From contig NC_045139.1 in assembly GCF_008831285.2 (NCBI RefSeq), positions 2,984,704-3,048,703 of the forward strand: DNA of 64,000 nt. Direction: 5' to 3'. The stretch's first letter is position 1, and each line of letters opens with the position of its first letter. Shown piece by piece: positions 32,080 to 58,945 of the stretch. The notes below the pieces were generated by a model. That model was not told the origin of the DNA. It made no database searches and saw only the letters and a list, made by a program, of their open reading frames with translations. The translations under genes and the position numbers were made by a program. The stretch comes from Nymphaea colorata (lineage: Eukaryota; Streptophyta; Magnoliopsida; Nymphaeales; Nymphaeaceae).

Positions 32080-32083
<4 letters not shown>

Positions 32084-35150: not shown

Positions 35151-35189
35151 CTATCCTTGTTGCTAATATGAACAAGGTTGGTAACTCAG

Positions 35190-35192
<3 letters not shown>

Positions 35193-35217
<25 letters not shown>
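35193..35217. repeat. (CT)n microsatellite, unit 1
   Basis: About 25 bp of CT, also at 45927-45951 and about 56659-56682 in units 2 and 3. Confidence 0.95.
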
Positions 35218-35220
<3 letters not shown>

Positions 35221-35289
35221 AAAGAAAGACGGCCATCTGTTCTCCCTTCACAATCGCCTATCAACACTAGCAACGTTTCCAGTTCTCCA

Positions 35290-36053
35290 TCTCTCTCAAG
35301 TTCATTCTCAAATAGATTGAGAAGCTGGAACCAATCCACGGCCTCTTGAGTTAAAGCGATTGTTGTTTTGTGACCCTTGTTATTTTGATTTCGGGTCTGC
35401 TTGGTGGGAAATCCAACGTTAGCATTCAACTTGCTTTCACTTGCACTAAGGTCCTTCATGGTCTAATGATTTTGAAGTAATGAGACAAGGAATTGGTGGC
35501 ATAAAAACGGAGGTGGAGAAGGCTTCATAACCTACTCCTAAACCACTCGTCAACCAAGAAACTATATCGTCTTCATTGATGCGCTTGCTTATAGCAGCAA
35601 GTTCATCACAAATAAACTCGAATCCAGTTATGTATCAGTAATGGACTTATCTTGTTTTTGATAAGTCTGTAACTTCCTCTTCAATAAAAAATGTCTCTCT
35701 TTTGACTCACGTACAAATGTTGTTGTTAAGGTATTCCATACTTCTGCTGAAGTCTTGTGTCCAATGGCAAGACCCAACGCCTCTTCAGACAAAGATCTTG
35801 TAATCAAGCCATCTGATTTCTTCCAGGCATTGAAATAAGGATTAAGACAGTTGACAGGTTCACCAATTTTAGTGGTTTTAATGGTAGAACTTGGCATAGG
35901 AATAGTGCCAGTAATAAACCCAAGAACATCCTGGCTTTCTTTGAGTCCAAGGATCTGAGTTTGCCAAAGCAGAAAATTCTTATGTGTGAGCTTGATCGAG
36001 ACAAAATTTGCAACATTCACATTTGAAGGGAAGGAGAACTTAGCTGATGACAT
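35290..36053 (-). pseudogene. Ty1/copia gag-only fragment, unit 1
   Basis: Minus-strand frame from ATG 36053: NVANFVSIKLTHKNFLLWQT, then LFSLSEEALG-like text and AEVWNTLTTTFVRESKE, which is the N-terminal gag region of plant copia elements. After a stop at 35628-35630 the same protein continues in another frame (GFEFICDELAAISKRI, then VSWLTSGLGVGYEAFS). It ends in an NNNRFNSRGRG stretch near 35330. No zinc knuckle or pol follows. Units 1 and 2 lack 12 bp (four residues) present in unit 3 and a further 7 bp near 35489. Truncated and frameshifted. Confidence 0.85.
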
Positions 36054-36123
36054 TTTTGAGGGCGATGCCCTTGAAGTAGCAGGAAAAAAATCAGCAAGAG
36101 GAGGTCCTTAAAGAGCTTAACCT

Positions 36124-36136
36124 GGTTGTGATACCA
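36124..36136 (-). other. Copia primer-binding site, unit 1
   Basis: Minus strand reads TGGTATCACAACC directly after an LTR end TTTTTCA. This is the initiator-Met-tRNA type primer site (TGGTATCA...) of copia elements. It shows the gag fragment is the 5' end of an element; LTR sequence extends upward from 36137 but its outer end could not be fixed. Confidence 0.8.
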
Positions 36137-36407
36137 TGAAAAATGCTCAAGAAGAGAAATTTTAATGTGGTTCAGATATTGTCCTACATCCACAATACTC
36201 AGTCATCAAAACGATGATGAGTCTTCTTTCATTTCCCTAGATTTTATACAAGAGGTTGGTAGATTACAATAAGTTTTTTGAGTTTGCTTCAGCCTTATTT
36301 AGAGGATTTTGTTTCCATAATAATTTCTGCAAGCATTCATTGCGACAACCATGTACATGATTTGTAGCTTCTTGTGGTGTGATCATGCGTTGTCTTTTTT
36401 TCCAAGT

Positions 36408-36527
36408 TTATTATGCAATAGTTTCTTTCCAACCTGAGTTGCTATGGTTGTGGGCAGGTGTTATTTTTTTCCACAATCATAGCAACTCACAATGCTTAAA
36501 GGTTGGAAAGAAAATATTGCATGATAA
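36408..36527. repeat. 120-bp imperfect hairpin, unit 1
   Basis: TTATTATGCAATAGTTTC/TTTCCAACC pairs with GGTTGGAAAG/AAAATATTGCATGATAA at the other end. The inner GAGTTGCTATGGTTGTGG pairs with CCACAATCATAGCAACTC. The stem is about 50 bp with small bulges. Identical-looking copies lie at 47142-47261 and 57893-58012. It could be a small MITE or a miRNA-like precursor. Confidence 0.8.
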
Positions 36528-37604
36528 ATATAGATAGATAATCACAACTCTCCATGTATGAATTATGGAAAGAAGGATCTAACACCACACACAGCTATAA
36601 ATCAGGTACAAGATTGTGACAATAAATACATGCAGAAATACAGAAATTATTATTTTGGAAACAAAATCTTTTAAATAAGATTGACATTAAGCCTGAGCAT
36701 TGGGCCCGAACCCTAAAAAACTAAGTTGGACCAACCCTAGCCGATCTGGAGAAGTGTGTGTATAATGTCTTTCTATTAAAAGAAAATCAGAGGTGTCAGT
36801 ACTCCCGTCTAAAGAAGGACAAAGCCACCTTATACCGTGCGACTGCATGATACGCAGGATAGTTGAGGGTTGCTCAGCTGTCCACTTATTATTAGATCCA
36901 ATTATATTTTCTTATTGGATCACGCACAAAACATGGAGAGTGATTATTTGAATTTATACTAATTGGCCAAAGTATATCTACTTGGCTTCTTCTCCATTAA
37001 TGTCAGTAATGTATATGAGAGTCTCATCAATTATTGTAGAGGCTAATGAACTCAACGAGTATTATTAGTTTTGTTACTCAAATCATGAGATATTTTCAAA
37101 ATGGTGAAGAAGTATTCAAATAATTTAAAAGACAAAGACTATTTTTCACCAAGATGTGGGGTCGACGGGGTTCATAGAAAAAAAAGTGGTCAAGTTAGGA
37201 GGTTTTGTGCGTGCAGAATCAGACTTTTCCCACGTTATTTACAAAAAAAATAGGTTTTGTGTGTGTCAATAAAATACACAACCAGATTTCTGAGACTCAT
37301 TAAAAAAAAACTAATTTTTGGAAAATCAAGTTTTTACAAGACTGAATTTTAGAAAATCAAGTTTTTACAAAACTGAGTTAAAATAAGAGTGTTGTCCAAG
37401 TGCCCCAAGAAAGAATTTTGTAAGCCAATTGACCACCTATATATAGCTGTCTGCAGGCAGGGAGCGATGGTTCAATTTTTATGTTAGTCAAGCCCAATGT
37501 GATTAAGAAGAATTAATGGGTCAAAAAAATTGGGTTTGGGGCATGTCCATCAAACACAAAAATCAGGCTTCTAAAATTATTAACGGAATAAAATTTTCTT
37601 AAAA
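36528..37604. other. No recognisable gene, unit 1
   Basis: LTR or leader remains and AT-rich text. A short GAAAATCAAGTTTTTACA motif is repeated at about 37322 and 37357 and in variant form at 37598. The stretch near 37190 is where unit 3 carries about 245 bp more. Confidence 0.5.
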
Positions 37605-38310
37605 TCAAGTTTTTATAAAACAGATTTTCTCAAAACCAAATTTGCAATCAGGATTGGAATTCAAAATCAAAAATTTTACAGGCCTGGCACATCTGCCGTT
37701 AGGCAACAGATAATAACCCGCCTGCTTCAAATGAGGTCTCCACCTCATTGGTCCACCAATTACTCTCACTATCCCATGGCTTTGAGAGAAATTTCTGAAG
37801 TATCGCCTCCAGAAGCTCTGGTGCTTCCCATTTGAATCCCCCCAAGCATCGTACACTCCTGCAAATATACAGTCTTCAGGCCTTATTTCGAACAACAGCT
37901 ACAAATTTTGCCCATCTCTCCTCACCAGACAAGCTGTAGCCACGCCGCTTAAATGTCGACCACGAGTCAGGCCTAACAGAGAAACCCATCCATGCCTTTA
38001 GCTCTTTCTGTAAAGGGTGTTACAAAGAAAATCCTTCAATTCATTCCATAGACCAAACCGATCGAAGAAAGTCTTCTCCCCTTCAAAGTTGAGTATGAAG
38101 AACAAGATCTTTAATCCAAAAGGACTTCAAATTCCTTAACATAGGGCATCCATGCTGAATTGCTGCTTGCACCACCATACACCTAACTGTTCTCCTAACT
38201 AAATGTGAATCTTTTGAATTGGCCAAGAATTTTACAATACTTTTTCCCCAATCCTCAGCCCAAAATGTTGCATATTCATCCACCTCCCAGCGCAGCAGGT
38301 GTGCCACATC
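37605..38310 (-). pseudogene. Unrecognised coding-like remnant, unit 1
   Basis: Two open stretches on the minus strand read like real protein. The upstream one (38310-38083) has AHLLRWEVDEYATFWAEDWG and AAIQHGCPMLRNLKSFW. The downstream one (37895-37605) has GVYDAWGDSNGKHQSFWRRY and GGPMRWRPHLKQAGYYLLPN. Between them GFSVRPDSWSTFKRRGYSLS continues in another frame. TTTGCAG before GAGTGTACGATGC (near 37861) looks like an intron acceptor. I do not recognise the family. Frameshifts and missing ends argue for a gene fragment. Confidence 0.4.
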
Positions 38311-38519
38311 TTCCTAGCCCCTCCAAGCCCATGAACTACTATCAGGTACTTCACCAATCCACAAAGGAACACACTATCTCCAAGCCACCCAAGCAAAATA
38401 AAGACAATCATGTTGATTTTTTTTCAAATGTTCAAACCAATCAAGTATTGACATTGGAAAACGATGTTTTTGATCAACCAAATTTTGAAAACGCTGACAT
38501 AGATGGGGGTGGATTATGT

Positions 38520-38945
38520 AGGATAATTTAGGATGTTTTTGTTTACCTTGGATATGAGAGCCGAGATGATTTGAGATCACTATAGATCTCAAATCCAAGG
38601 ATTTGAGGTCAGATTGTCTCTCATCCTATCTCAAATATGATGTTTTGGCAATATAATGGTATCTTAAATCCTTTTTTTCTAACATAATGGTGGAAACCAA
38701 TGTTTGTTTACTTTGTAGGTCCCATATAAAAGGAATTTCAGATCAGCTTCATATCTCAAATATGAGTTGATCAAACACTCCTTAAAAGAAACAAAAAAGG
38801 GCATCATGTATAAAGTTGTTAACCCAGTAAAATTGGGCATCTCTATTTCATATGTGGTTTTGGCAATATATCAAATCAGCATCAGACCAGCATCAAATCT
38901 CAAATATGAGGCTATTAAACACTCTCTTAGAGAAACAAAACCAAA
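38520..38945. mobile_element. Possible MITE, unit 1
   Basis: It begins GGATGTTTTTGTTTACC. Inverted GTGTTTGATCAACTCATATT and GTGTTTAATAGCCTCATATT stretches lie near 38745-38783 and 38905-38935, with several ATCTCAAATATGAG palindromes between them. This is the pattern of a small DNA transposon with worn ends, possibly two nested copies. Confidence 0.4.
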
Positions 38946-39272
38946 CATCTTGTGTGAGGATTGTTAACCCAGTGTATTGAGAATCTCTATTTCAGCACAT
39001 GAAGTAGACTTAGCAACAATTTGAAATCTCTATATGTCCAAGCAAAGTACAGCTAATAAGAAACAAAGCAAACCACCCTTTCCATGAAAAGGAAAGGTGT
39101 TATTTTTATACAATTTGAAATCACCATATGTCCAATCAAAGGTTATCCAACAAAAAACAAAGCAAACCACCCTTTCCTTAATAAGGAATGGTATTACTTT
39201 TCGTCTCATTATTCATTGATGAACAGTACGTCATTGGCCTCTTTCCCATGACAAGGAAAGCTTTTGATGACA

Positions 39273-39820
39273 CTAGTAACTTTCAACATCATCATCAAGC
39301 ATCAACAATGTTGGTGTTGTGTCAAGTGCATCAAAGACCTTTACTTGCTTGGCTGGTATCCGGTTCAGTGCCTTTTCTCCAAATGAAGTGCTCGTGTTCT
39401 ATGGCAAATGCATTGTAAAAATGATAAGATCGAACTTAGAATCATTAACTTAACAAACGATTAATGTAAGTTAAAGAATAAAGAGAATTAGGAATGACAC
39501 CATCGGTTTGTTACCTTCTGACAGATGCTCACGTCAACATTGCAAATGGGATAATCATAAGGCCAGCAAGTGCGATCATCCTCGCAACATGTGGTGGACT
39601 GTGAACCCCATTGATAGCAATTGTCTTCTTCTTCATAGATGCAGCAGTAGGTGAAGCTCATAAGACATAAATTATATTCATCACAGAAAATCGTTGGTAT
39701 AAGCTTCGGGGTTTGGGTTCAATTTTGATCGGATATGAAGGCCAAATGGCAATACCACACATTCCATGCAAATTTCCACTGATATTCTTTTCCATTCTTA
39801 TGTATCCACCCTCACCTCCG
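39273..39820 (-). pseudogene. RD21-like cysteine protease 3' fragment, unit 1 (frameshifted)
   Basis: Minus-strand exons 39515-39820 and 39273-39398 (116-bp GT-AG intron, phase 0). They encode the end of a papain-family protease (GGYIRMEKN, MCGIAIWPSYPIK), a proline spacer, a granulin domain (from FCDEYNLC to VSICQK) and a tail with FGEKALNRIPAKQ that ends at 39273-39275. The catalytic Cys and His exons are absent; upstream the match is cut by an unrelated repeat at 39821. The granulin has lost the Cys pair expected after YQWG and one of the pair in CWPYDYP. A G-run at 39708-39711 has four bases against five in units 2 and 3, which breaks the frame here. Confidence 0.88.
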
Positions 39821-40154
39821 ACCATCCCCTCTCTCAAAATCTGATTTTAAATCCATGTTTTTTACATTAAAGTGTGGTTTGAAATCCACGATTTGATATA
39901 ACTGTGAATTTCAGCCATCATAAACTTAAGCTTCTCTCAAAACTGAAATCTATAGGGAATCAAACTCAACCTTATTTCTCATAAAATCCACGGTCTGAAA
40001 AATAAGACGAAGTTAATTTGGTAAAAATCCTTTTGCTTTGTGTTTAAAATTTGTCTTATAGCTAACTACAAACGCACTGTGTTTGAATCGGTCCATTCCA
40101 ATATCTGAGTTGTAGTGAACCGATTTAGTTTGACGGCCGATTTATTCAAACTAC
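39821..40154. mobile_element. Repeat abutting the protease fragment, unit 1
   Basis: Same element as 26509-26838, from GACCATCCCCTCTCTC to GACGGCCGAT. The unit ends with it, and the next unit begins directly after it. Copies: 50556-50889 and 61536-61869. Confidence 0.7.
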
Positions 40155-40245
40155 TTTTGAAAAATGATATTTCAACCACAGTTAAAATTTAGAAACTTCA
40201 ATTCGGACCTCCTCATAAAAAATTTCTAGCTCGGCCCCTGGATAT

Positions 40246-40909
40246 GCTGTCTGAGTCCAAAACGATATGATCAGCAAAAGACATGGAGAAATGAGATTTA
40301 ATACAAGGTTGATGCAGGCATCCTCTTCCCTTGGCCGATCCATCAAAAGAGAAGTGACTCAAGGCAGACAGAACCGGAGAACTCGAGGAAGCATCCACAG
40401 AAGCGAAGGGTGCCAACTACAAAGAGGATGGTCGTGATAGCTCAGTTGGAAGTTACAGTAGGCTACGGTCTTCTTCCATGTCAGGAGAAGGGCAGCGTCC
40501 TCATTGTTGGACCGGCTTTGTGGGTTTTTAATTGCAAATCTTGTGACCTTGAATCAACAGCTTTTGCAATTGAATAAGAATCCATCCAGCTGATTCATAT
40601 TCTCTCATTTTAGGTGATTTTTAGTATCATCTAAGGGATTCTCTTCCTCCCTTTTTTATTTACATTACAAATCTGTAAGTATTTTCAAAGGCCATTAGTG
40701 TGGGACTATATATATATATATATAAATTTTTTATCTCCTTAGAGCAGTATTTCAAGATCTTGAAAATACAACTACTTTTTTTCATATGATGGATCTTCTT
40801 AAAGTCATTGGTGGAGACAATTTCCATCATGTCTGACATATTAAGATTTGGTGGGCAACTGTTTAATATTATTGAAAAAGTGCTCCGCTTTGAGATGTTA
40901 CAAGTTAAG
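40246..40909. repeat. 664-bp segment found only in units 2-4
   Basis: Unit 1 joins GATAT to AAAATAAAG directly (30084-30100), while units 2, 3 and 4 have 664 bp between (51645 and 62625 mark the right edges in units 3 and 4). It includes a short TA run at 40710-40722 and small minus-strand frames of 67 and 114 codons with no family signature. No terminal repeats are visible. Confidence 0.85.
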
Positions 40910-41466
40910 AAAATAAAGAAAAGTCTGCAAAACTTATGACAATAATGACAAAATTTCGGCAATCCATTAGATCTGAAAATGATATTCCTTACAAATTCTT
41001 GCAACTTTTGTAAATTCCATTAATGTTTCTACATATCTTTCCAATGAGAAGATAAAATGTTTTAAAATTAATGTCAGAATACGTTTAGGAGAGCCTCTCA
41101 CTGCCTCCCCACCTTCCCTTTCCCCTCTCTCAGCGACAGTTCAAACAAGGGTTTGATTCACACACTCTCTCTCCTAAAAATCCAGAAAAGCAAAAAGGTG
41201 CGGAAAATTTTTCTACTTTAATTTCTATGATGAATACCTCGTTCCAAGAACAATATGAGAAATAATTTGTACAGTTTTCATCAAGTTGCAACTAATTTTA
41301 TGTATAAAAAGAAAAAAAAAATACTAGCACATAGCGTAGCTAAATTAGCTTATGTTGAGAACATTTATTAGCGGAGGGACAAGCCTCCTGAATGGAGGCC
41401 ATTTTTGAATGATATTTTTTTGAATAGTTGAATACATTGATACGGGATCTGCCTAAACCGAACTTG

Positions 41467-41470
<4 letters not shown>

Positions 41471-41509
<39 letters not shown>
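41471..41509. repeat. (TA)n microsatellite, unit 2
   Basis: Shortest of the four homologous TA tracts. Confidence 0.95.
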
Positions 41510-41513
<4 letters not shown>

Positions 41514-42746
41514 GCTATCTTATTTCGCTGATGAGGAAAAAGCAGTTTTCTAAAACAGTCACGATGAACTCTTGTAGAGACAGAACGGAAAGTGTATAAT
41601 TTAACACATAGTCAAGGATGCTTCGCCCGTTTGCCTTTTCTCTTAAACCTCTTAGCACTTAAACACCCGGATCGAGTGCTGTTCAATTTTCACAAACTCA
41701 AACATATGAAAGGATGAAAAATGTTAAAAAAAATTGTAACGATAGAAAATTATAAAAATCAGATGTACAAATTAGTTTTTATGTCATTGTAACATTGACA
41801 AACTTGGATTTCTCAACATCTAAAATTTGATATAGATGTAAAAAAAAAATCATCTTTTTTTATTATTATATTTTCAAACACTCCGCATTTGTCTGTATTG
41901 TTAGACAGATTCAAGTAACCAACTTAAAACATGCATTCTAATAAATAAAAAAATAATTATATATATATACGTTAAAAAATAATAATAAATAATTAGAAAA
42001 AGCATGCTTTTCTTGAGATATTTTAATTTTTCGTTAATTTTATAAACGGATACCAAATACTAGTGTATTTTTTATCCTTGATAGCAGACCAATCAAAAAT
42101 CTCACTCTATTTGGTAGTTGGGAGATCGCTGGTTGATGCCAATTATTGACATAAGTAACTAAGAACATTATATGTAAGCGATATGTGGATATGCCTCCAC
42201 GGTATGCTTTATTGTTTTAAGTTGTCTTAAAACTCCCAACCTTTTATATAAATGTCTGAAAGCAGAATAATAATAAAAATATAAAAATCTTATGTTTAGA
42301 CTTTAGATTTGGTCGACTTGTGAATCAACAAAGCCAACTTCATTCTCTCTTTTAAAACCTTGAAAGATCGATTCAAATTTATGCCTCTAATTTTCATGCT
42401 TGTGGGCGTATAAATTGAAACATCTGTATCAATCCGCATGATTCTATTTGTAAAAAACAATCTCACAATGCTGGAGATTAATGTTTTCACCGGACGGTGC
42501 AATTAAACCTAACATGTTATTTGAGGCCTACCTGCTCCCTACCTTCCCCTAATAGATTCCGGCCACATTTATTCTACATGGTTATAATATTCCAGTTGTT
42601 GGCTCTCTCCAAAGGGGACAATAATTTCTTATAATTCTATGAGTTGATTATTGAAATGCTAGGGTAACAATATGGGGCAACTTACCTTGAAAAAAACAGT
42701 ACAATGTGAATGTGGAGGAAAGATTTATTTCATTGGTTTTATCTCA

Positions 42747-42747
42747 G

Positions 42748-42814
<67 letters not shown>
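42747..42814. repeat. (CT)n(TA)n microsatellite, unit 2
   Basis: About 26 bp CT then about 42 bp TA. In unit 3 the TA part is about 55 bp. Confidence 0.95.
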
Positions 42815-42818
<4 letters not shown>

Positions 42819-44104
42819 GAATACCGTGTAAGCTTTGGTTACATAAACGCATATATATGGACCACATCGCTTTCTCTTTTCCATTAACGTCCCTCCCGCT
42901 CGCACTCATGGGCGCCCACACCGATCACAGAGAGACAGAGGACAGCAACAAGTGAGTCCGATAAGAGAAAAGAGAGAGAGTGTGTTAGTTTTGTGGGTGG
43001 TGGAGAGGAGGGGGTAGGGCTGAACACCAGCCGAGTCGAGCCCGAGCTCGGCCAGCTCGAACTCGGCTCGACTAAGTAAGAGTCGAGCTCGGCTTGACTC
43101 GAGCTCGAAAATAGCTCGACTACACTAGCTTGAACTCGACTCGATAGTCACTGAGGGGGTGACGGGGAATAGGAGGGGGTACACAACCGCATTTTTTGCT
43201 GTTTAGTGAAAAGGAAGGGTGCTGATACAACGGTTTTATCGGCCGCTGCATCGCCATCGTGATCACACAACTCAAAATGGATAGGTGGGTGCAAAATTAA
43301 CTTATATAAAAAGTGGCGATGCAGGCGCTAAAATTAACTTTAATTTTATATAAAATTAACACAAATGGCATCTCTCCCATCTCCACCTACAATGGCGGCC
43401 AATTTGACATCAGCCTGCTGGTCTGGAAGGTAAACTTTCTTCTCTTCACTCTATATTTCCTTCTGCTCCCATGCATAGTAAGTGGTCACCTAAGATTCCA
43501 AACAATGATCTCCAATTTAACAACATAAACATTTTATAACCTTACCGACTCATTTCACTGGTCAACATAACTTGGAAGAAGCCCTAGCCAGCTGAGAAGG
43601 TTGTAGGTCCTTTGATAAAATTGGTGCATAAGTTGGCCACTTTGAAGCAACTAGAGGCCCAATTATAGATTGGGATATTAATTTGAGCTCATAATTTCAG
43701 TCAAAAGATGCAGTAGATGAATATTAATGATGTTCCAGTTAATTATATGAGGCAGATAAGCTCATATTTTATTTACTCTTGGTCATGAATGAACATACAT
43801 GCATTCATGAATGTTTATGTCATAAAATGTCGTCTCCCAACAACTCACACCACATAATATAAGCTTATCGACTCATTTCACAGGTAAACATAACATGCAT
43901 TCGTGTGGAGGAGAACGGACCTCACACCATATAATTTTGAGCTTATTCACTCAATTATAGATTGGGTTCTAAAAGAACGCATTGAGCTTATTCACACCAT
44001 CTACTGCATCTTTTGACTGAAATTATAATAAAATATGAGCTTATTCACACCATCTACTCTTCCTTCCAATGGGTAAGATAATTTGAAAGCTGAGAGAATG
44101 ACAG

Positions 44105-45884
44105 AAAAGGTTTGCAAATAAGGACATTTGAGTAGATACTGCATGGTTACATTAGCTCTAATAGCAAATTGGTTGCCAGTTCCAGTATCTTTTGGAAACG
44201 CGGCTTCATCCACGCGGTTTTCCGTCAGCCTCGCGAGAGACAGGGGAAACGAAGAGGAGCGGCAGTTATATACCGGGAGGACCACGAGTCAGGGCACTAT
44301 CATAATTTCTCAGGTCTTGGGAATTCTGCCAATGGGTTCGAGACAGCTGAACGCCGGGCCGGGCATCCAGCTGTGCTCGATGGCGACGACAGCTGTGGAC
44401 CGATCCAGACGTCTTGGCACATGCTCGTTGCTTGCCACCGAGTTAAAGATGCCTCCCCTGATTCCGGCCGCGACCCCGCCGGAATATTCCTCCGGGATAC
44501 CAACACCCCACAGGGGAACAATCTCGGAATTCCAATTTCAGTATGCCGGAGTGAGCCTGATAGGGAAACTGAATCTGACCCGATAGTTTATAGAAACAAC
44601 TCATTCATGGTGAAGATCTCATCAGATCCTTTTTTTATAATTTGGGAACCTGCTCATGGCATGAAACCCATAAGATCATTCTCTTCGCTCCTACTTACTT
44701 TCTCGTCGTGCCTTAGAACTCACATCGGGTGAGTTGTTGGTTCGAGGTCTACATCCACTTGACTCGGACCATCTTTAGTAATGAACTGATGATCATTACT
44801 AAACTTTAGGTGCTTTTTAGAAATGCCTTCAATAGTATGCATACATTGTATTGAGCAGAGCTGGTCATACATTGTTCCTGATTATGAGATGTTGTTCCTG
44901 ATTATGAGATGGGTTCTTCATTTGCACATTCAAATTAATGACCAGCTCTGCTCAATACAATGTATGCATACTATTGAAGGCATTACTAAAAAGCACCTAA
45001 AGTTTTGAAAATAATGAATCACCGCTCTCTTTTCAAAGTTAACATACATGCATTCAATTTTTAAGAGAAATTCTCAAAGAACTGCCTCGTGAATCTGTTG
45101 AATCTTATCTTTCGTTGCTCAAACGAGTCTAAGGTTCCACGACAAATGGGCTCAAGGTGGACCATCAGTTCACTGCTAAAGATGGTCAGAGTCAAGTGAA
45201 TGTAGACCTCGAACCAACAACTCACCTGATGTGCGTTCTAAGGCACAACGAGAAAGTAAGTAGGAGCGAAGAGAATGATCTTACGGGCTTCATGCCATGA
45301 GCAAGCTCCCAAATTATACAAAAAAGAAAAAGGATCTGATCAGATCTTCACCATCAATGAGTTGTTTCTATAAACTATCGGGTCAGATTCAGTTTCCCTA
45401 TCAGACTCACTATATCCCGGCCTCAAGCATACTGAAATTGGAATTCCGAGATTGTTCCCCTGTGGGGTGTTGGTATCCCGGAGGAAGAAGGAATATTCCG
45501 GCGAGGTCGCGGCCGGAATCAGGGGAGGCATCTTTAACTCGGTGGCAAGCAACGAGCACGTGCCAAGAGATCCGGAGGGGTCCACAGCTGCGGTCGCCAT
45601 CGAGCACAGCTGGATGCCGGGCGTCCAGCTGTCTCGAACCCATTGGCAGAATTCCCAAGACCTGAGAAATTACGATAGTGCCCTGACTCGTGGTCCTCCC
45701 GGTATATAACTGCTGCTCCTCTTCGTTTCCCCTGTCTCTCGCCAGGCTGACGGAAAACTGCGTGGATGAAGCCGCGTTTCTAAAAGATAAGGTTTGCAAA
45801 TAAGGACATTTGAGTAGACACCGCATGGTTTGACTACAACGTCGCCATCGAGTGAATCCAACGCTCCTTATTTGCAAACCTTTT
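44105..45884. mobile_element. Foldback element, unit 2
   Basis: Same structure as 33371-35150. It has one private change seen (GACCGATCC at about 44400 against GACCGCTCC). The 20-bp loop duplication is present as in unit 1. Confidence 0.85.
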
Positions 45885-45923
45885 CTATCCTTGTTGCTAA
45901 TATGAACAAGGTTGGTAACTCAG

Positions 45924-45954
<31 letters not shown>

Positions 45955-46023
45955 AAAGAAAGACGGCCATCTGTTCTCCCTTCACAATCGCCTATCAACA
46001 CTAGCAACGTTTCCAGTTCTCCA

Positions 46024-46787
46024 TCTCTCTCAAGTTCATTCTCAAATAGATTGAGAAGCTGGAACCAATCCACGGCCTCTTGAGTTAAAGCGATTGTTGT
46101 TTTGTGACCCTTGTTATTTTGATTTCGGGTCTGCTTGGTGGGAAATCCAACGTTAGCATTCAACTTGCTTTCACTTGCACTAAGGTCCTTCATGGTCTAA
46201 TGATTTTGAAGTAATGAGACAAGGAATTGGTGGCATAAAAACGGAGGTGGAGAAGGCTTCATAACCTACTCCTAAACCACTCGTCAACCAAGAAACTATA
46301 TCGTCTTCATTGATGCGCTTGCTTATAGCAGCAAGTTCATCACAAATAAACTCGAATCCAGTTATGTATCAGTAATGGACTTATCTTGTTTTTGATAAGT
46401 CTGTAACTTCCTCTTCAATAAAAAATGTCTCTCTTTTGACTCACGTACAAATGTTGTTGTTAAGGTATTCCATACTTCTGCTGAAGTCTTGTGTCCAATG
46501 GCAAGACCCAACGCCTCTTCAGACAAAGATCTTGTAATCAAGCCATCTGATTTCTTCCAGGCATTGAAATAAGGATTAAGACAGTTGACAGGTTCACCAA
46601 TTTTAGTGGTTTTAATGGTAGAACTTGGCATAGGAATAGTGCCAGTAATAAACCCAAGAACATCCTGGCTTTCTTTGAGTCCAAGGATCTGAGTTTGCCA
46701 AAGCAGAAAATTCTTATGTGTGAGCTTGATCGAGACAAAATTTGCAACATTCACATTTGAAGGGAAGGAGAACTTAGCTGATGACAT
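46024..46787 (-). pseudogene. Ty1/copia gag-only fragment, unit 2
   Basis: Identical in all visible features to unit 1, including the four-residue deletion before LITRSLSEEALG and the stop ending the first frame at 46362. The primer-binding site is at 46858-46870. Confidence 0.85.
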
Positions 46788-47141
46788 TTTTGAGGGCGAT
46801 GCCCTTGAAGTAGCAGGAAAAAAATCAGCAAGAGGAGGTCCTTAAAGAGCTTAACCTGGTTGTGATACCATGAAAAATGCTCAAGAAGAGAAATTTTAAT
46901 GTGGTTCAGATATTGTCCTACATCCACAATACTCAGTCATCAAAACGATGATGAGTCTTCTTTCATTTCCCTAGATTTTATACAAGAGGTTGGTAGATTA
47001 CAATAAGTTTTTTGAGTTTGCTTCAGCCTTATTTAGAGGATTTTGTTTCCATAATAATTTCTGCAAGCATTCATTGCGACAACCATGTACATGATTTGTA
47101 GCTTCTTGTGGTGTGATCATGCGTTGTCTTTTTTTCCAAGT

Positions 47142-47261
47142 TTATTATGCAATAGTTTCTTTCCAACCTGAGTTGCTATGGTTGTGGGCAGGTGTTATTT
47201 TTTTCCACAATCATAGCAACTCACAATGCTTAAAGGTTGGAAAGAAAATATTGCATGATAA
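47142..47261. repeat. 120-bp imperfect hairpin, unit 2
   Basis: Copy of 36408-36527 without visible change. Confidence 0.8.
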
Positions 47262-48338
47262 ATATAGATAGATAATCACAACTCTCCATGTATGAATTAT
47301 GGAAAGAAGGATCTAACACCACACACAGCTATAAATCAGGTACAAGATTGTGACAATAAATACATGCAGAAATACAGAAATTATTATTTTGGAAACAAAA
47401 TCTTTTAAATAAGATTGACATTAAGCCTGAGCATTGGGCCCGAACCCTAAAAAACTAAGTTGGACCAACCCTAGCCGATCTGGAGAAGTGTGTGTATAAT
47501 GTCTTTCTATTAAAAGAAAATCAGAGGTGTCAGTACTCCCGTCTAAAGAAGGACAAAGCCACCTTATACCGTGCGACTGCATGATACGCAGGATAGTTGA
47601 GGGTTGCTCAGCTGTCCACTTATTATTAGATCCAATTATATTTTCTTATTGGATCACGCACAAAACATGGAGAGTGATTATTTGAATTTATACTAATTGG
47701 CCAAAGTATATCTACTTGGCTTCTTCTCCATTAATGTCAGTAATGTATATGAGAGTCTCATCAATTATTGTAGAGGCTAATGAACTCAACGAGTATTATT
47801 AGTTTTGTTACTCAAATCATGAGATATTTTCAAAATGGTGAAGAAGTATTCAAATAATTTAAAAGACAAAGACTATTTTTCACCAAGATGTGGGGTCGAC
47901 GGGGTTCATAGAAAAAAAAGTGGTCAAGTTAGGAGGTTTTGTGCGTGCAGAATCAGACTTTTCCCACGTTATTTACAAAAAAAATAGGTTTTGTGTGTGT
48001 CAATAAAATACACAACCAGATTTCTGAGACTCATTAAAAAAAAACTAATTTTTGGAAAATCAAGTTTTTACAAGACTGAATTTTAGAAAATCAAGTTTTT
48101 ACAAAACTGAGTTAAAATAAGAGTGTTGTCCAAGTGCCCCAAGAAAGAATTTTGTAAGCCAATTGACCACCTATATATAGCTGTCTGCAGGCAGGGAGCG
48201 ATGGTTCAATTTTTATGTTAGTCAAGCCCAATGTGATTAAGAAGAATTAATGGGTCAAAAAAATTGGGTTTGGGGCATGTCCATCAAACACAAAAATCAG
48301 GCTTCTAAAATTATTAACGGAATAAAATTTTCTTAAAA

Positions 48339-49044
48339 TCAAGTTTTTATAAAACAGATTTTCTCAAAACCAAATTTGCAATCAGGATTGGAATTCAAAA
48401 TCAAAAATTTTACAGGCCTGGCACATCTGCCGTTAGGCAACAGATAATAACCCGCCTGCTTCAAATGAGGTCTCCACCTCATTGGTCCACCAATTACTCT
48501 CACTATCCCATGGCTTTGAGAGAAATTTCTGAAGTATCGCCTCCAGAAGCTCTGGTGCTTCCCATTTGAATCCCCCCAAGCATCGTACACTCCTGCAAAT
48601 ATACAGTCTTCAGGCCTTATTTCGAACAACAGCTACAAATTTTGCCCATCTCTCCTCACCAGACAAGCTGTAGCCACGCCGCTTAAATGTCGACCACGAG
48701 TCAGGCCTAACAGAGAAACCCATCCATGCCTTTAGCTCTTTCTGTAAAGGGTGTTACAAAGAAAATCCTTCAATTCATTCCATAGACCAAACCGATCGAA
48801 GAAAGTCTTCTCCCCTTCAAAGTTGAGTATGAAGAACAAGATCTTTAATCCAAAAGGACTTCAAATTCCTTAACATAGGGCATCCATGCTGAATTGCTGC
48901 TTGCACCACCATACACCTAACTGTTCTCCTAACTAAATGTGAATCTTTTGAATTGGCCAAGAATTTTACAATACTTTTTCCCCAATCCTCAGCCCAAAAT
49001 GTTGCATATTCATCCACCTCCCAGCGCAGCAGGTGTGCCACATC
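48339..49044 (-). pseudogene. Unrecognised coding-like remnant, unit 2
   Basis: Same as 37605-38310; the readable frames are unchanged. Confidence 0.4.
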
Positions 49045-50006
49045 TTCCTAGCCCCTCCAAGCCCATGAACTACTATCAGGTACTTCACCAATCCACAAAG
49101 GAACACACTATCTCCAAGCCACCCAAGCAAAATAAAGACAATCATGTTGATTTTTTTTCAAATGTTCAAACCAATCAAGTATTGACATTGGAAAACGATG
49201 TTTTTGATCAACCAAATTTTGAAAACGCTGACATAGATGGGGGTGGATTATGTAGGATAATTTAGGATGTTTTTGTTTACCTTGGATATGAGAGCCGAGA
49301 TGATTTGAGATCACTATAGATCTCAAATCCAAGGATTTGAGGTCAGATTGTCTCTCATCCTATCTCAAATATGATGTTTTGGCAATATAATGGTATCTTA
49401 AATCCTTTTTTTCTAACATAATGGTGGAAACCAATGTTTGTTTACTTTGTAGGTCCCATATAAAAGGAATTTCAGATCAGCTTCATATCTCAAATATGAG
49501 TTGATCAAACACTCCTTAAAAGAAACAAAAAAGGGCATCATGTATAAAGTTGTTAACCCAGTAAAATTGGGCATCTCTATTTCATATGTGGTTTTGGCAA
49601 TATATCAAATCAGCATCAGACCAGCATCAAATCTCAAATATGAGGCTATTAAACACTCTCTTAGAGAAACAAAACCAAACATCTTGTGTGAGGATTGTTA
49701 ACCCAGTGTATTGAGAATCTCTATTTCAGCACATGAAGTAGACTTAGCAACAATTTGAAATCTCTATATGTCCAAGCAAAGTACAGCTAATAAGAAACAA
49801 AGCAAACCACCCTTTCCATGAAAAGGAAAGGTGTTATTTTTATACAATTTGAAATCACCATATGTCCAATCAAAGGTTATCCAACAAAAAACAAAGCAAA
49901 CCACCCTTTCCTTAATAAGGAATGGTATTACTTTTCGTCTCATTATTCATTGATGAACAGTACGTCATTGGCCTCTTTCCCATGACAAGGAAAGCTTTTG
50001 ATGACA

Positions 50007-50555
50007 CTAGTAACTTTCAACATCATCATCAAGCATCAACAATGTTGGTGTTGTGTCAAGTGCATCAAAGACCTTTACTTGCTTGGCTGGTATCCGGTTC
50101 AGTGCCTTTTCTCCAAATGAAGTGCTCGTGTTCTATGGCAAATGCATTGTAAAAATGATAAGATCGAACTTAGAATCATTAACTTAACAAACGATTAATG
50201 TAAGTTAAAGAATAAAGAGAATTAGGAATGACACCATCGGTTTGTTACCTTCTGACAGATGCTCACGTCAACATTGCAAATGGGATAATCATAAGGCCAG
50301 CAAGTGCGATCATCCTCGCAACATGTGGTGGACTGTGAACCCCATTGATAGCAATTGTCTTCTTCTTCATAGATGCAGCAGTAGGTGAAGCTCATAAGAC
50401 ATAAATTATATTCATCACAGAAAATCGTTGGTATAAGCTTCGGGGGTTTGGGTTCAATTTTGATCGGATATGAAGGCCAAATGGCAATACCACACATTCC
50501 ATGCAAATTTCCACTGATATTCTTTTCCATTCTTATGTATCCACCCTCACCTCCG
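50007..50555 (-). pseudogene. RD21-like cysteine protease 3' fragment, unit 2
   Basis: Exons 50249-50555 and 50007-50132. Unlike unit 1 the frame is open throughout (five G at 50442-50446), so the C-terminal protease strand, the spacer, the degenerate granulin and the tail read continuously across the intron. The protease core is still missing, so no active enzyme is expected. Confidence 0.88.
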
Positions 50556-52201
50556 ACCATCCCCTCTCTCAAAATCTGATTTTAAATCCATGTTTTTTAC
50601 ATTAAAGTGTGGTTTGAAATCCACGATTTGATATAACTGTGAATTTCAGCCATCATAAACTTAAGCTTCTCTCAAAACTGAAATCTATAGGGAATCAAAC
50701 TCAACCTTATTTCTCATAAAATCCACGGTCTGAAAAATAAGACGAAGTTAATTTGGTAAAAATCCTTTTGCTTTGTGTTTAAAATTTGTCTTATAGCTAA
50801 CTACAAACGCACTGTGTTTGAATCGGTCCATTCCAATATCTGAGTTGTAGTGAACCGATTTAGTTTGACGGCCGATTTATTCAAACTACTTTTGAAAAAT
50901 GATATTTCAACCACAGTTAAAATTTAGAAACTTCAATTCGGACCTCCTCATAAAAAATTTCTAGCTCGGCCCCTGGATATGCTGTCTGAGTCCAAAACGA
51001 TATGATCAGCAAAAGACATGGAGAAATGAGATTTAATACAAGGTTGATGCAGGCATCCTCTTCCCTTGGCCGATCCATCAAAAGAGAAGTGACTCAAGGC
51101 AGACAGAACCGGAGAACTCGAGGAAGCATCCACAGAAGCGAAGGGTGCCAACTACAAAGAGGATGGTCGTGATAGCTCAGTTGGAAGTTACAGTAGGCTA
51201 CGGTCTTCTTCCATGTCAGGAGAAGGGCAGCGTCCTCATTGTTGGACCGGCTTTGTGGGTTTTTAATTGCAAATCTTGTGACCTTGAATCAACAGCTTTT
51301 GCAATTGAATAAGAATCCATCCAGCTGATTCATATTCTCTCATTTTAGGTGATTTTTAGTATCATCTAAGGGATTCTCTTCCTCCCTTTTTTATTTACAT
51401 TACAAATCTGTAAGTATTTTCAAAGGCCATTAGTGTGGGACTATATATATATATATATAAATTTTTTATCTCCTTAGAGCAGTATTTCAAGATCTTGAAA
51501 ATACAACTACTTTTTTTCATATGATGGATCTTCTTAAAGTCATTGGTGGAGACAATTTCCATCATGTCTGACATATTAAGATTTGGTGGGCAACTGTTTA
51601 ATATTATTGAAAAAGTGCTCCGCTTTGAGATGTTACAAGTTAAGAAAATAAAGAAAAGTCTGCAAAACTTATGACAATAATGACAAAATTTCGGCAATCC
51701 ATTAGATCTGAAAATGATATTCCTTACAAATTCTTGCAACTTTTGTAAATTCCATTAATGTTTCTACATATCTTTCCAATGAGAAGATAAAATGTTTTAA
51801 AATTAATGTCAGAATACGTTTAGGAGAGCCTCTCACTGCCTCCCCACCTTCCCTTTCCCCTCTCTCAGCGACAGTTCAAACAAGGGTTTGATTCACACAC
51901 TCTCTCTCCTAAAAATCCAGAAAAGCAAAAAGGTGCGGAAAATTTTTCTACTTTAATTTCTATGATGAATACCTCGTTCCAAGAACAATATGAGAAATAA
52001 TTTGTACAGTTTTCATCAAGTTGCAACTAATTTTATGTATAAAAAGAAAAAAAAAATACTAGCACATAGCGTAGCTAAATTAGCTTATGTTGAGAACATT
52101 TATTAGCGGAGGGACAAGCCTCCTGAATGGAGGCCATTTTTGAATGATATTTTTTTGAATAGTTGAATACATTGATACGGGATCTGCCTAAACCGAACTT
52201 G

Positions 52202-52204
<3 letters not shown>

Positions 52205-52248
<44 letters not shown>
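52205..52248. repeat. (TA)n microsatellite, unit 3
   Basis: Homologous to 41471-41509, slightly longer. Confidence 0.95.
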
Positions 52249-52252
<4 letters not shown>

Positions 52253-53486
52253 GCTATCTTAATTCGCTGATGAGGAAAAAGCAGTTTTCTAAAACAGTCA
52301 CGATGAACTCTTGTAGAGACAGAACGGAAAGTGTATAATTTAACACATAGTCAAGGATGCTTCGCCCGTTTGCCTTTTCTCTTAAACCTCTTAGCACTTA
52401 AACACCCGGATCGAGTGCTGTTCAATTTTCACAAACTCAACCATATGAAAGGATGAAAAATGTTAAAAAAAATTGTAACGATAGAAAATTATAAAAATCA
52501 GATGTACAAATTAGTTTTTATGTCATTGTAACATTGACAAACTTGGATTTCTCAACATCTAAAATTTGATATAGATGTAAAAAAAAAATCATCTTTTTTT
52601 ATTATTATATTTTCAAACACTCCGCATTTGTCTGTATTGTTAGACAGATTCAAGTAACCAACTTAAAACATGCATTCTAATAAATAAAAAAATAATTATA
52701 TATATATACGTTAAAAAAATAATAATAAATAATTAGAAAAAGCATGCTTTTCTTGAGATATTTTAATTTTTCGTTAATTTTATAAACGGATACCAAATAC
52801 TAGTGTATTTTTTATCCTTGATAGCAGACCAATCAAACATCTCACTCTATTTGGTAGTTGGGAGATCGCTGGTTGATGCCAATTATTGACATAAGTAACT
52901 AAGAACATTATATGTAAGCGATATGTGGATATGCCTCCACGGTATGCTTTATTGTTTTAAGTTGTCTTAAAACTCCCAACCTTTTATATAAATGTCTGAA
53001 AGCAGAATAATAATAAAAATATAAAAATCTTATGTTTAGACTTTAGATTTGGTCCACTTGTGAATCAACAAAGCCAACTTCATTCTCTCTTTTAAAACCT
53101 TGAAAGATCGATTCAAATTTATGCCTCTAATTTTCATGCTTGTGGGCGTATAAATTGAAACATCTGTATCAATCCGCCTGATTCTATTTGTAAAAAACAA
53201 TCTCACAATGCTGGAGATTAATGTTTTCACCGGACGGTGCAATTAAACCTAACATGTTATTTGAGGCCTACCTGCTCCCTACCTTCCCCTAATAGATTCC
53301 GGCCACATTTATTCTACATGGTTATAATATTCCAGTTGTTGGCTCTCTCCAAAGGGGACAATAATTTCTTATAATTCTATGAGTTGATTATTGAAATGCT
53401 AGGGTAACAATATGGGGCAACTTACCTTGAAAAAAACAGTACAATGTGAATGTGGAGGAAAGATTTATTTCATTGGTTTTATCTCA

Positions 53487-53487
53487 G

Positions 53488-53566
<79 letters not shown>
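53487..53566. repeat. (CT)n(TA)n microsatellite, unit 3
   Basis: CT tract followed by TA tract at the place of 42747-42814. Confidence 0.95.
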
Positions 53567-53570
<4 letters not shown>

Positions 53571-54856
53571 GAGTACCGTGTAAGCTTTGGTTACATAAAC
53601 GCATATATATGGACCACATCGCTTTCTCTTTTCCATTAACGTCCCTCCCGCTCGCACTCATGGGCGCCCACACCGATCACAGAGAGACAGAGGACAGCAA
53701 CAAGTGAGTCCGATAAGAGAAAAGAGAGAGAGTGTGTTAGTTTTGTGGGTGGTGGAGAGGAGGGGGTAGGGCTGAACACCAGCCGAGTCGAGCCCGAGCT
53801 CGGCCAGCTCGAACTCGGCTCGACTAAGTAAGAGTCGAGCTCGGCTTGACTCGAGCTCGAAAATAGCTCGACTACACTAGCTTGAACTCGACTCGATAGT
53901 CACTGAGGGGGTGACGGGGAATAGGAGGGGGTACACAACCGCATTTTTTGCTGTTTAGTGAAAAGGAAGGGTGCTGATACAACGGTTTTATCGGCCGCTG
54001 CATCGCCATCGTGATCACACAACTCAAAATGGATAGGTGGGTGCAAAATTAACTTATATAAAAAGTGGCGATGCAGGCGCTAAAATTAACTTTAATTTTA
54101 TATAAAATTAACACAAATGGCATCTCTCCCATCTCCACCTACAATGGCGGCCAATTTGACATCAGCCTGCTGGTCTGGAAGGTAAACTTTCTTCTCTTCA
54201 CTCTATATTTCCTTCTGCTCCCATGCATAGTAAGTGGTCACCTAAGATTCCAAACAATGATCTCCAATTTAACAACATAAACATTTTATAACCTTACCGA
54301 CTCATTTCACTGGTCAACATAACTTGGAAGAAGCCCTAGCCAGCTGAGAAGGTTGTAGGTCCTTTGATAAAATTGGTGCATAAGTTGGCCACTTTGAAGC
54401 AACTAGAGGCCCAATTATAGATTGGGATATTAATTTGAGCTCATAATTTCAGTCAAAAGATGCAGTAGATGAATATTAATGATGTTCCAGTTAATTATAT
54501 GAGGCAGATAAGCTCATATTTTATTTACTCTTGGTCATGAATGAACATACATGCATTCATGAATGTTTATGTCATAAAATGTCGTCTCCCAACAACTCAC
54601 ACCACATAATATAAGCTTATCGACTCATTTCACAGGTAAACATAACATGCATTCGTGTGGAGGAGAACGGACCTCACACCATATAATTTTGAGCTTATTC
54701 ACTCAATTATAGATTGGGTTCTAAAAGAACGCATTGAGCTTATTCACACCATCTACTGCATCTTTTGACTGAAATTATAATAAAATATGAGCTTATTCAC
54801 ACCATCTACTCTTCCTTCCAATGGGTAAGATAATTTGAAAGCTGAGAGAATGACAG

Positions 54857-56616
54857 AAAAGGTTTGCAAATAAGGACATTTGAGTAGATACTGCATGGTT
54901 ACATTAGCTCTAATAGCAAATTGGTTGCCAGTTCCAGTATCTTTTGGAAACGCGGCTTCATCCACGCGGTTTTCCGTCAGCCTCGCGAGAGACAGGGGAA
55001 ACGAAGAGGAGCGGCAGTTATATACCGGGAGGACCACGAGTCAGGGCACTATCATAATTTCTCAGGTCTTGGGAATTCTGCCAATGGGTTCGAGACAGCT
55101 GAACGCCGGGCCGGGCATCCAGCTGTGCTCGATGGCGACGACAGCTGTGGACCGCTCCAGACGTCTTGGCACATGCTCGTTGCTTGCCACCGAGTTAAAG
55201 ATGCCTCCCCTGATTCCGGCCGCGACCCCGCCGGAATATTCCTCCGGGATACCAACACCCCACAGGGGAACAATCTCGGAATTCCAATTTCAGTATGCCG
55301 GAGTGAGCCTGATAGGGAAACTGAATCTGACCCGATAGTTTATAGAAACAACTCATTCATGGTGAAGATCTCATCAGATCCTTTTTTTATAATTTGGGAA
55401 CCTGCTCATGGCATGAAACCCATAAGATCATTCTCTTCGCTCCTACTTACTTTCTCGTCGTGCCTTAGAACTCACATCGGGTGAGTTGTTGGTTCGAGGT
55501 CTACATCCACTTGACTCGGACCATCTTTAGTAATGAACTGATGATCATTACTAAACTTTAGGTGCTTTTTAGAAATGCCTTCAATAGTATGCATACATTG
55601 TATTGAGCAGAGCTGGTCATACATTGTTCCTGATTATGAGATGGGTTCTTCATTTGCACATTCAAATTAATGACCAGCTCTGCTCAATACAATGTATGCA
55701 TACTATTGAAGGCATTACTAAAAAGCACCTAAAGTTTTGAAAATAATGAATCACCGCTCTCTTTTCAAAGTTAACATACATGCATTCAATTTTTAAGAGA
55801 AATTCTCAAAGAACTGCCTCGTGAATCTGTTGAATCTTATCTTTCGTTGCTCAAACGAGTCTAAGGTTCCACGACAAATGGACTCAAGATGGACCATCAG
55901 TTCACTGCTAAAGATGGTCAGAGTCAAGTGAATGTAGACCTCGAACCAACAACTCACCTGATGTGCGTTCTAAGGCACAACGAGAAAGTAAGTAGGAGCG
56001 AAGAGAATGATCTTACGGGCTTCATGCCATGAGCAAGCTCCCAAATTATACAAAAAAGAAAAAGGATCTGATCAGATCTTCACCATCAATGAGTTGTTTC
56101 TATAAACTATCGGGTCAGATTCAGTTTCCCTATCAGACTCACTATATCCCGGCCTCAAGCATACTGAAATTGGAATTCCGAGATTGTTCCCCTGTGGGGT
56201 GTTGGTATCCCGGAGGAAGAAGGAATATTCCGGCGAGGTCGCGGCCGGAATCAGGGGAGGCATCTTTAACTCGGTGGCAAGCAACGAGTACATGCCAAGA
56301 GATCCGGAGGGGTCCACAGCTGCCGTCGCCATCGAGCACAGCTGGATGCCGGGCGTCCAGCTGTCTCGAACCCATTGGCAGAATTCCCAAGACCTGAGAA
56401 ATTACGATAGTGCCCTGACTCGTGGTCCTCCCGGTATATAACTGCTGCTCCTCTTCGTTTCCCCTGTCTCTCGCCAGGCTGACGGAAAACTGCGTGGATG
56501 AAGCCGCGTTTCTAAAAGATAAGGTTTGCAAATAAGGACATTTGAGTAGACACCGCATGGTTTGACTACAACGTCGCCATCGAGTGAATCCAACGCTCCT
56601 TATTTGCAAACCTTTT
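54857..56616. mobile_element. Foldback element, unit 3
   Basis: Same element, but the loop carries one copy of the TTCCTGATTATGAGATG-type block instead of two (20 bp shorter). Right-arm changes include GAGTACATGCC for GAGCACGTGCC (about 56287) and GCTGCCGTCGCC for GCTGCGGTCGCC. Confidence 0.85.
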
Positions 56617-56655
56617 CTATCCTTGTTGCTAATATGAACAAGGTTGGTAACTCAG

Positions 56656-56686
<31 letters not shown>

Positions 56687-56755
56687 AAAGAAAGACGGCC
56701 ATCTGTTCTCCCTTCACAATCGCCTATCAACACTAGCAACGTTTCCAGTTCTCCA

Positions 56756-57538
56756 TCTCTCTCAAGTTCATTCTCTAATAGATTGAGAAGCTGGAACCAA
56801 TCCACGGCCTCTTGAGTTAAAGCGATTTTTGTTTTGTGACCCTCGTTATTTTGATTTCCGGTCTGCTTGGTGGGAAATCCAACGTTAGCATTCAACTTGC
56901 TTTCACTTGCGCTAAGGTCCTTCATGGTCTAATGATTTTGAAGTAATGAGACAACATCGGCGGAATTGGTGGCATAAAAACGAAGGTGGAGAAGGCTTCA
57001 TAACCTACTCCTAAACCACTCGTCAACCAAGAAACTATATCGTCTTCATTGATGCGCTTGCTTATAGCAGCAAGTTCATCACAAATAAACTTGAATCCAG
57101 TTATGTATCAGTAATGGACTTATCTTGTTTTTGATAAGTCTGTAACTTCCTCTTCAATAAAAAATGTCTCTCTTTTGACTCACGTACAAATGTTGTTGTT
57201 AAGGTATTCCATACTTCTGCTGAAGTCTTGTGTCCAATGGCAAGACCCAACGCCTCTTCAGACAAAGATCTTGTAATCAAGCCTCGAAGCAATCCATCTG
57301 ATTTCTTCCAGGCATTGAAATAAGGATTAAGACAGTTGACAGGTTCACCAATTTTAGTGGTTTTAATGGTAGAACTTGGCATAGGAATAGTGCCAGTAAT
57401 AAACCCAAGAACATCCTGGCTTTCTATGAGTCCAAGGATCTGAGTTTGCCAAAGCAGAAAATTCTTATGTGTGAGCTTGATCGAGACAAAATTTGCAACA
57501 TTCACATTTGAAGGGAAGGAGAACTTAGCTGATGACAT
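56756..57538 (-). pseudogene. Ty1/copia gag-only fragment, unit 3
   Basis: The first frame (57538-57101) gives 145 residues and includes the DGLLRGLITRSLSEEALG form typical of the family, so this is the least altered gag copy. Later parts are frameshifted as in the other units. The primer-binding site is at 57609-57621. Confidence 0.87.
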
Positions 57539-57892
57539 TTTTGAGGGGGATGCCCTTGAAGTAGCAGGAAAAAAATCAGCAAGAGGAGGTCCTTAAAGAG
57601 CTTAACCTGGTTGTGATACCATGAAAAATGCTCAAGAAGAGAAATTTTAATGTGGTTCAGATATTGTCCTACATCCACAATACTCAGTCATCAAAACGAT
57701 GATGAGTCTTCTTTCATTTCCCTAGATTTTATACAAGAGGTTGGTAGATTACAATAAGTTTTTTGAGTTTGCTTCAGCCTTATTTAGAGGATTTTGTTTC
57801 CATAATAATTTCTGCAAGCATTCATTGCGACAACCATGTACATGATTTGTAGCTTCTTGTGGTGTGATCATGCGTTGTCTTTTTTTCCAAGT

Positions 57893-58012
57893 TTATTATG
57901 CAATAGTTTCTTTCCAACCTGAGTTGCTATGGTTGTGGGCAGGTGTTATTTTTTTCCACAATCATAGCAACTCACAATGCTTAAAGGTTGGAAAGAAAAT
58001 ATTGCATGATAA
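57893..58012. repeat. 120-bp imperfect hairpin, unit 3
   Basis: Copy of 36408-36527 without visible change in the stem. Confidence 0.8.
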
Positions 58013-58689
58013 ATATAGATAGATAATCACAACTCTCCATGTATGAATTATGGAAAGAAGGATCTGACACCACACACAGCTATAAATCAGGTACAAGATT
58101 GTGACAATAAATACATGGAGAAATACAGAAATTATTATTTTGGAAACAAAATCTTTTAAATAAGATTGACATTAAGCCTGGGCATTGGGCCCAAACCCGA
58201 AAAAACTAAGTTGGACCAACCCTACCTGATCTGAAGAACTGTGTGTATAATGTCTTTCTATTAAAAAAAAATCAGAGGTGTCAGTACTCCCGTCTAAGGA
58301 AGGACGAAGCCACCTTATACCGGGCGACTGCATGATACACATGATAGTTGAGGGTTGCTCGGCTGTCCACTTATTATTAGATCCAATTATATTTTCTTAT
58401 TTGATCACGCACAAAACATGGAGAATGATTATATGAATTTATACTAATTGGCCAAAGTATATCTACTTGGCTTCTTCTCCATTAATGTCAGTAATGTATA
58501 TGAGAGTCTCATCAATTATTGTAGAGGCTAATGAACTCAACGAGTATTATTAGTTTTGTTACTCAAATCATGAGATATTTTCAAAATGGTGAAGAAGTAT
58601 TCAAATAATTTAAAAGACAAAGACTATTTTTCACCAAGATGTGGGGTCGACGGGGTTCATAGAAAAAAAAGTGGTCAAGTTAGGAGGTG

Positions 58690-58945
58690 TCTCGTCGTCG
58701 ACTTTTATGAAGGTCAGGCCAAATGTATTTAAGAAGCGACGTGTAATTAAAAACTTATTTAGGGACTGACTGCCCTTGCCATTGTGCTTTCACTAAAAAA
58801 AGAAAAGAAGTTGCTTTTGTTCAATTGAGCATGTGTGGCGTTCTTCAATGGCCTGATTGGCAGGGTTGGTTTGAATGGAATCGGACCTAACAGTGCATGA
58901 GAAGAACTTGTTTGACAATCTAGCTTTCCAAAAAGTGCGTGCAGC
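58690..58945. other. Unit 3-specific segment
   Basis: After GTTAGGAGGT unit 3 reads GTCTCGTCGTCGACTTTTAT and about 245 bp more before rejoining at GTGCGTGCAG. Units 1 and 2 have only a few bases here, plus AATCAGACTTTTCC that unit 3 lacks. A deletion in the ancestor of units 1 and 2 is the simplest reading. No gene inside. Confidence 0.8.

Follow-up and report, generated by a model that had tools for sequence, protein, structure and literature searches.

The middle unit of a three-unit tandem repeat in Nymphaea colorata as a probable product of unequal crossing-over between its neighbours

A 64,000-nucleotide stretch of the Nymphaea colorata genome (hereafter the window; contig NC_045139.1, or C2, positions 2984704-3048703, in a 407.8-Mb, 783-contig assembly) carries a tandem array with a period of about 10.73 kb, and the second of its three main units combines the sequence states of the third, on its left, with those of the first, on its right. 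Read from the assembled letters, unit 2 probably arose when a non-allelic (unequal) crossover between two neighbouring units, X (today's unit 1) and Y (today's unit 3), enlarged the array. Self-comparison and a three-way alignment place unit 1 at 30090-40909 and unit 3 at 51645-62624, and the same alignment, with the switch analysis described here, places unit 2 at 40910-51644; all three are direct, plus-strand repeats in register, with borders set at the start of the unit 1 homology. The array exceeds these three units, since the start of an older, interrupted unit 4 lies downstream and the degenerate tail of an older unit 0 upstream; an earlier note on this DNA had derived unit 2 from an array of two units, a starting point that does not stand with older units on both flanks.

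Alignment of units 1-3 with MAFFT yielded 179 difference events, 171 of them informative about the parentage of unit 2 and the other 8 private to it. In the assembled sequence the best single switch falls between 43447 and 44872 and leaves 4 misfits among the 171: to its left (40910-43447, plus strand) unit 2 carries unit 3 states at 109 of 112 informative events, and to its right (44872-51644, plus strand) it carries unit 1 states at 58 of 59. When two microsatellite stretches and the surroundings of a large indel, which together hold 35 events (32 of them informative), were masked, the best switch was unchanged, with 91/94 agreeing on the left and 44/45 on the right. The events of this masked set form 10 runs, whereas 20,000 shuffles of their order averaged 63 runs and never gave fewer than 42. 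Two of the misfits, at 42315 and 42438, are single-nucleotide polymorphisms (SNPs) private to unit 3, unit 4 agreeing there with units 1 and 2; a third, a 1-bp indel at 39707/50442, is private to unit 1, unit 4 agreeing with units 2 and 3; the fourth, at 42821, is not polarised. Several switches along unit 2 were considered and rejected, given that so few events are misfits under one.

The individual markers on which the earlier note had based its claim of clean sorting, with one switch between about 43450 and 44880, are all recovered, and the states do not alternate repeatedly along the unit. On the left, unit 2 has C at 43447, as unit 3 does at 54199, where unit 1 has T (32713); a 17-bp insertion at 43074 is common to units 2 and 3 (noted before as a CTCG-repeat insertion near 43075), and so is a (TC)n tract at 42748 (noted as a CT tract at 42747), for which Tandem Repeats Finder reports no counterpart in unit 1. 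On the right, the 20-bp loop duplication is tandem at 44872 and in unit 1 at 34138 but single in unit 3, the gag region has its 7-bp indel at 46222 and its 12-bp indel at 46542, and the short form placed near 47930 is found at 47937, where unit 3 has 177 + 52 extra bp.

With three units only, diagnostic sites could be private to unit 1 or to unit 3 rather than inherited jointly by unit 2 and one parent, and outgroups settle part of this; unit 4 and dispersed copies were assumed to serve as such. Against unit 4, six SNPs in the left part are shared-derived in units 2 and 3 (41838, 41899, 43189, 43234, 43268 and 43447), the least certain being 41838, which adjoins a 2-bp indel. At further left-hand sites alignable to unit 4, unit 1 alone differs at 50, of which 30 fall in the unit 4-shared part of tract T, a near-identical tract described below, and three states occur at 2. 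In the right part, tract T offers 5 SNPs alignable to unit 4: at two (49244 and 49963) units 1 and 2 share the derived state, and the other three are private to unit 3. In segment C, also on the right, unit 3 stands apart from units 1 and 2 at 33 SNPs. Units 1 and 2 carry the derived state at 11 of these and unit 3 does so at 10; one is unclear, and the remaining 11 lack an outgroup letter. The outgroup for this segment consisted of five dispersed copies, but almost every letter comes from two copies near 14.36 Mb of C2, so that it amounts to about one outgroup. The right-hand total is thus 2 + 11 = 13 SNPs shared-derived in units 1 and 2, and every polarised shared-derived SNP is consistent with one switch and none contradicts it.

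These results fit the scheme proposed in the earlier note, in which X-Y becomes X-(Y/X)-Y, as far as the polarity, the single switch and the shared-derived sites are concerned; a single event for everything does not fit, for reasons given below. X and Y would have adjoined in an older array and would have become identical over a tract; on misaligned chromatids, Y of one would then have paired with X of the other, and an exchange inside the identical tract would have produced X-(Y/X)-Y, with one extra period of about 10.73 kb. The junction in unit 2 is in register, as homologous exchange needs; that the exchange was a crossover is inferred. Break-induced copying, or some other in-register replicative tandem duplication in place of a reciprocal crossover, would be expected to leave the same final sequence, so that the letters alone give no distinction between the two; in in-register arrays replicative duplication is less usual than non-allelic crossover, and we regard it as very improbable here.

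The parental units are highly alike where the switch falls. Within the switch interval (43448-44871, plus strand) units 1 and 3 agree at all 1,424 sites, unit 2 having one private SNP at 44403. Counting SNPs only and in unit 2 coordinates, units 1 and 3 differ to the left at 30/545 sites (40910-41469), 23/1,222 (41516-42739) and 32/614 (42817-43447), and to the right at 33/3,043 (44872-47934) and 6/3,676 (47967-51644), so that divergence is 5.2% just left of the interval and 1.1% right of it. From SNP to SNP (43447-45150) the longest identical run spans 1,682 compared sites, above the maximum of 1,286 reached in 2,000 permutations. Slow evolution of this tract was ruled out, because units 1 and 3 differ from unit 4 there at 31 of 519 alignable sites. 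The switch tract is longer than the processing segment of 300-500 bp quoted in PMC5101643 and near in length to the conversion tracts of 1-1.5 kb quoted in PMC2686159.

A second tract of near identity, tract T, is about 4.3 kb long and lies across the unit borders. Its first copy (37231-41509, plus strand) spans the junction of units 1 and 2 and is 99.77% identical to 58945-63224; its second (47965-52248, plus strand) spans the junction of units 2 and 3 and is 99.79% identical to 58945-63228; and its third (58945-63228, plus strand) is adjoined on the left by the 177 + 52-bp indel and has an (AT)n tract at its right end. Over tract T, units 1 and 3 differ at 6 of 3,676 sites and differ from unit 4 at 129-130 of 2,267. 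Both tracts thus combine identity, or near identity, between otherwise diverged paralogues with sequence that is not slow-evolving, the pattern expected of concerted evolution by gene conversion. The limits of tract T coincide with an (AT)n microsatellite (63182-63264) and a large indel (58689-58944), as if heterology had limited the exchange.

Several of these observations weigh against a single, simple crossover. Units 1 and 3 would have been left untouched by the crossover itself and yet are identical in the switch interval, and they must therefore have been homogenised there in a separate exchange, which, we infer, most simply predates the crossover; with tract T, at least two further homogenising exchanges seem to be needed. 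A single recent event between sister chromatids also predicts equal divergence of the two halves, but unit 2 departs from unit 3 at 6 of the 2,371 sites compared in its left part and from unit 1 at none of the 6,719 compared in its right part (Fisher P 0.0003). Moreover, a 1.3-kb window, its length chosen from the data, takes in six of the seven differences found across the duplicated period, a clustering equalled in 6 of 4,000 permutations, and the six left-hand private states are divided between unit 2 (three) and unit 3 (three). The uneven halves count against one simple event and not against a crossover, since later allelic exchange or conversion could explain them.

The six clustered SNPs between units 2 and 3 occupy 41516-42821, inside an otherwise near-identical duplicated period. 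Of the five that can be checked, three are private to unit 2 and two to unit 3; none matches unit 4 or unit 1, and conversion of this patch from either of those units was therefore rejected. The excess of SNPs may instead stem from exchange between homologues with different Y alleles, from later allelic exchange, or from the mixing of alleles in the assembly. The states private to unit 2 comprise the SNPs 41523, 41702, 42098 and 44403 and a 1-bp deletion at 41973.

An alternative interpretation is that unit 2 arose by gene conversion without crossover, a third unit having been present already and having had its right part replaced by unit 1 sequence and its left part by unit 3 sequence. Homogenising exchange is indeed evident in the switch tract and in tract T, where units 1 and 3 are near-identical, and the excess between units 2 and 3 in 41516-42821 could be a remnant of an older unit 2. 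We nevertheless consider conversion alone improbable: the right-hand tract would have to extend over at least 6.7 kb (0/6,719 sites differ), where PMC2686159 quotes 1-1.5 kb; nowhere in unit 2 is there strongly diverged sequence peculiar to it; and conversion would have been just as likely to give the opposite polarity as the one observed. In a further reading, which as a whole appears rather unlikely to us, conversion came first, making X and Y identical over about 1.4 kb, possibly through breaks at the arm of a foldback element, and the new tract then became the place of the crossover that added a unit; if true, this would mean that local homogenisation itself prepares growth in copy number.

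All of this is drawn from one assembly, and the crossover reading supposes that the assembly is correct. There could be two real units, with the assembler having looped twice, or having merged haplotypes, at the tract where X equals Y, and the result would again read X-(Y/X)-Y. It would suit such an artefact that the switch falls in the longest identical stretch between units 1 and 3, that units 1 and 2 show no SNP over 6,719 right-hand sites and that the left-hand differences between units 2 and 3 could be allelic; passages in PMC13032017 describe misassembly and switch errors in tandem arrays. However, a plain second pass would not create the SNPs and the 1-bp deletion that unit 2 has to itself, although allelic differences could, and no N occurs within the 113 kb examined, which likewise speaks against a plain loop, if not against allele mixing. 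The tract, at 1.4-1.7 kb, is also short relative to long reads, and on balance we hold an artefact to be unlikely. Three stretches of the unit were searched for in the whole assembly, with scoring of the best candidates; none showed a near-identical, near-full-length copy outside the array, so that these searches brought up no second haplotype for comparison.

The earlier note had further suggested that an inverted repeat, the foldback element, may have promoted the exchange. Its left arm in unit 2 (44186-44794, plus strand) lies inside the switch interval and has an inverted match, at 90.4%, to the right arm (45160-45789, minus strand), which self-comparison places outside the interval. The overlap itself stands, the left arm filling 609 of the 1,424 bp (43%), but a random interval of 1,424 bp would overlap the foldback about 28% of the time, and the overlap thus lends no support to the proposed promotion, which is a possible contribution. 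Conversion from arm to arm was tried as an explanation and set aside: at the five positions where the right arms of units 1 and 3 differ, the left arm is matched by unit 3 alone at 2 (34858 and 34423) and by unit 1 alone at 3, with no clear trend.

Older units flank the array on both sides. The unit-0 tail (26507-30089, no strand assigned) consists of matches to unit 3 split by about 3.16 kb: 26507-26827 is 85.5% identical to 61532-61865, and 29984-30088 is 85.7% identical to 61857-61960. The intervening sequence, 26828-29983, separates pieces that adjoin in unit 3 and may be an insertion in unit 0 or a loss from the other units; the two matches share 9 bp in unit 3, a possible, degenerate target-site duplication. 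Unit 4 starts at 62625, continues on the plus strand to the end of the window at 64000 and runs beyond it to about window-equivalent position 79849. No match to the foldback and gag part of unit 3 (54778-59612) was found in unit 4; at window-equivalent 75572-77536, the part of units 1-3 of about 4.9 kb that holds the foldback and the gag fragment is without a match, and it may represent insertions common to units 1-3 or a loss from unit 4. Unit 3 was rejected as a recent copy of unit 4, because to the right of tract T BLAST identities reach only 96.3% (52202-52706) and 95.3% (52731-53217).

The 15 unit open reading frames (ORFs) scanned against Pfam (5 + 10, part of those listed) showed no intact gene. 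The sole family above cut-off was copia gag (PF14223), in two of them: the unit 1 copy at 35628-36107 (E 3.5e-07) and the unit 3 copy at 57101-57592 (E 2.7e-09). The Copia-type gag fragment of unit 2 (46362-46841, minus strand) has a translation identical to that of the unit 1 copy, the Pfam scores coming from units 1 and 3, and it contains the 12-bp indel, with the 7-bp indel just beyond it. In tract T, the first part of an ORF at 50225-50581 (minus strand) is similar to the C-terminus of plant papain-like cysteine proteases in the PDB (Triticain alpha, E 4.7e-06); the Pfam scan gave no match for this ORF, which is probably a pseudogene fragment, and related DNA occurs on contigs C3 and C7 (best 84-89%). 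ARAGORN, and Rfam at gathering thresholds, reported nothing in the window. Upstream of the array lie three minus-strand copies of a short-chain dehydrogenase (7891-9509, 18173-18561 and 23405-25182); in the first, two ORFs have Pfam matches to adh_short, while the matches of the middle copy are in two different frames, so that it is probably broken. Past the third copy, sequence at 26.5-26.8 kb is similar to the tails of units in the array.

In this array the parents and the product of a non-allelic exchange stand side by side with an outgroup unit, and this adjacency allows the exchange to be placed within 1.4 kb and to be separated from homogenising events. Its bearing is on how arrays grow; it adds no new mechanism and is a further clean example of a documented process, of an ordinary and well-known kind. 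At maize P1-wr, as related in sections of PMC2686159, two direct copies crossed over unequally to give a third, and further crossovers and gene conversion followed; the likeness to the present array lies in the making of a third copy by unequal crossover and in polymorphisms common to copies over several kilobases, and the difference in that P1-wr comprises eleven extensively reshuffled gene copies, whereas the present array has three units that are young, show a single clean switch and gave no sign of an intact gene in the scanned ORFs. The Arabidopsis MSH2/AT3G18530/AT3G18535 locus of non-allelic homologous recombination, in the account excerpted from PMC5101643, also has a mappable switch interval and sometimes conversion tracts; its duplications arise from direct repeats of 1,238 bp with 99% identity, but they are recurrent and were established by polymerase chain reaction and sequencing in a number of accessions, as against one assembly here. 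Like the present array, the cucumber Femaleness (F) locus, as outlined in parts of PMC7072070, involves a large tandem repeat (30.2 kb) whose copy number is held to change by unequal crossing over; there a phenotype and direct molecular tests accompany the repeat, whereas the array described here is known from its sequence.

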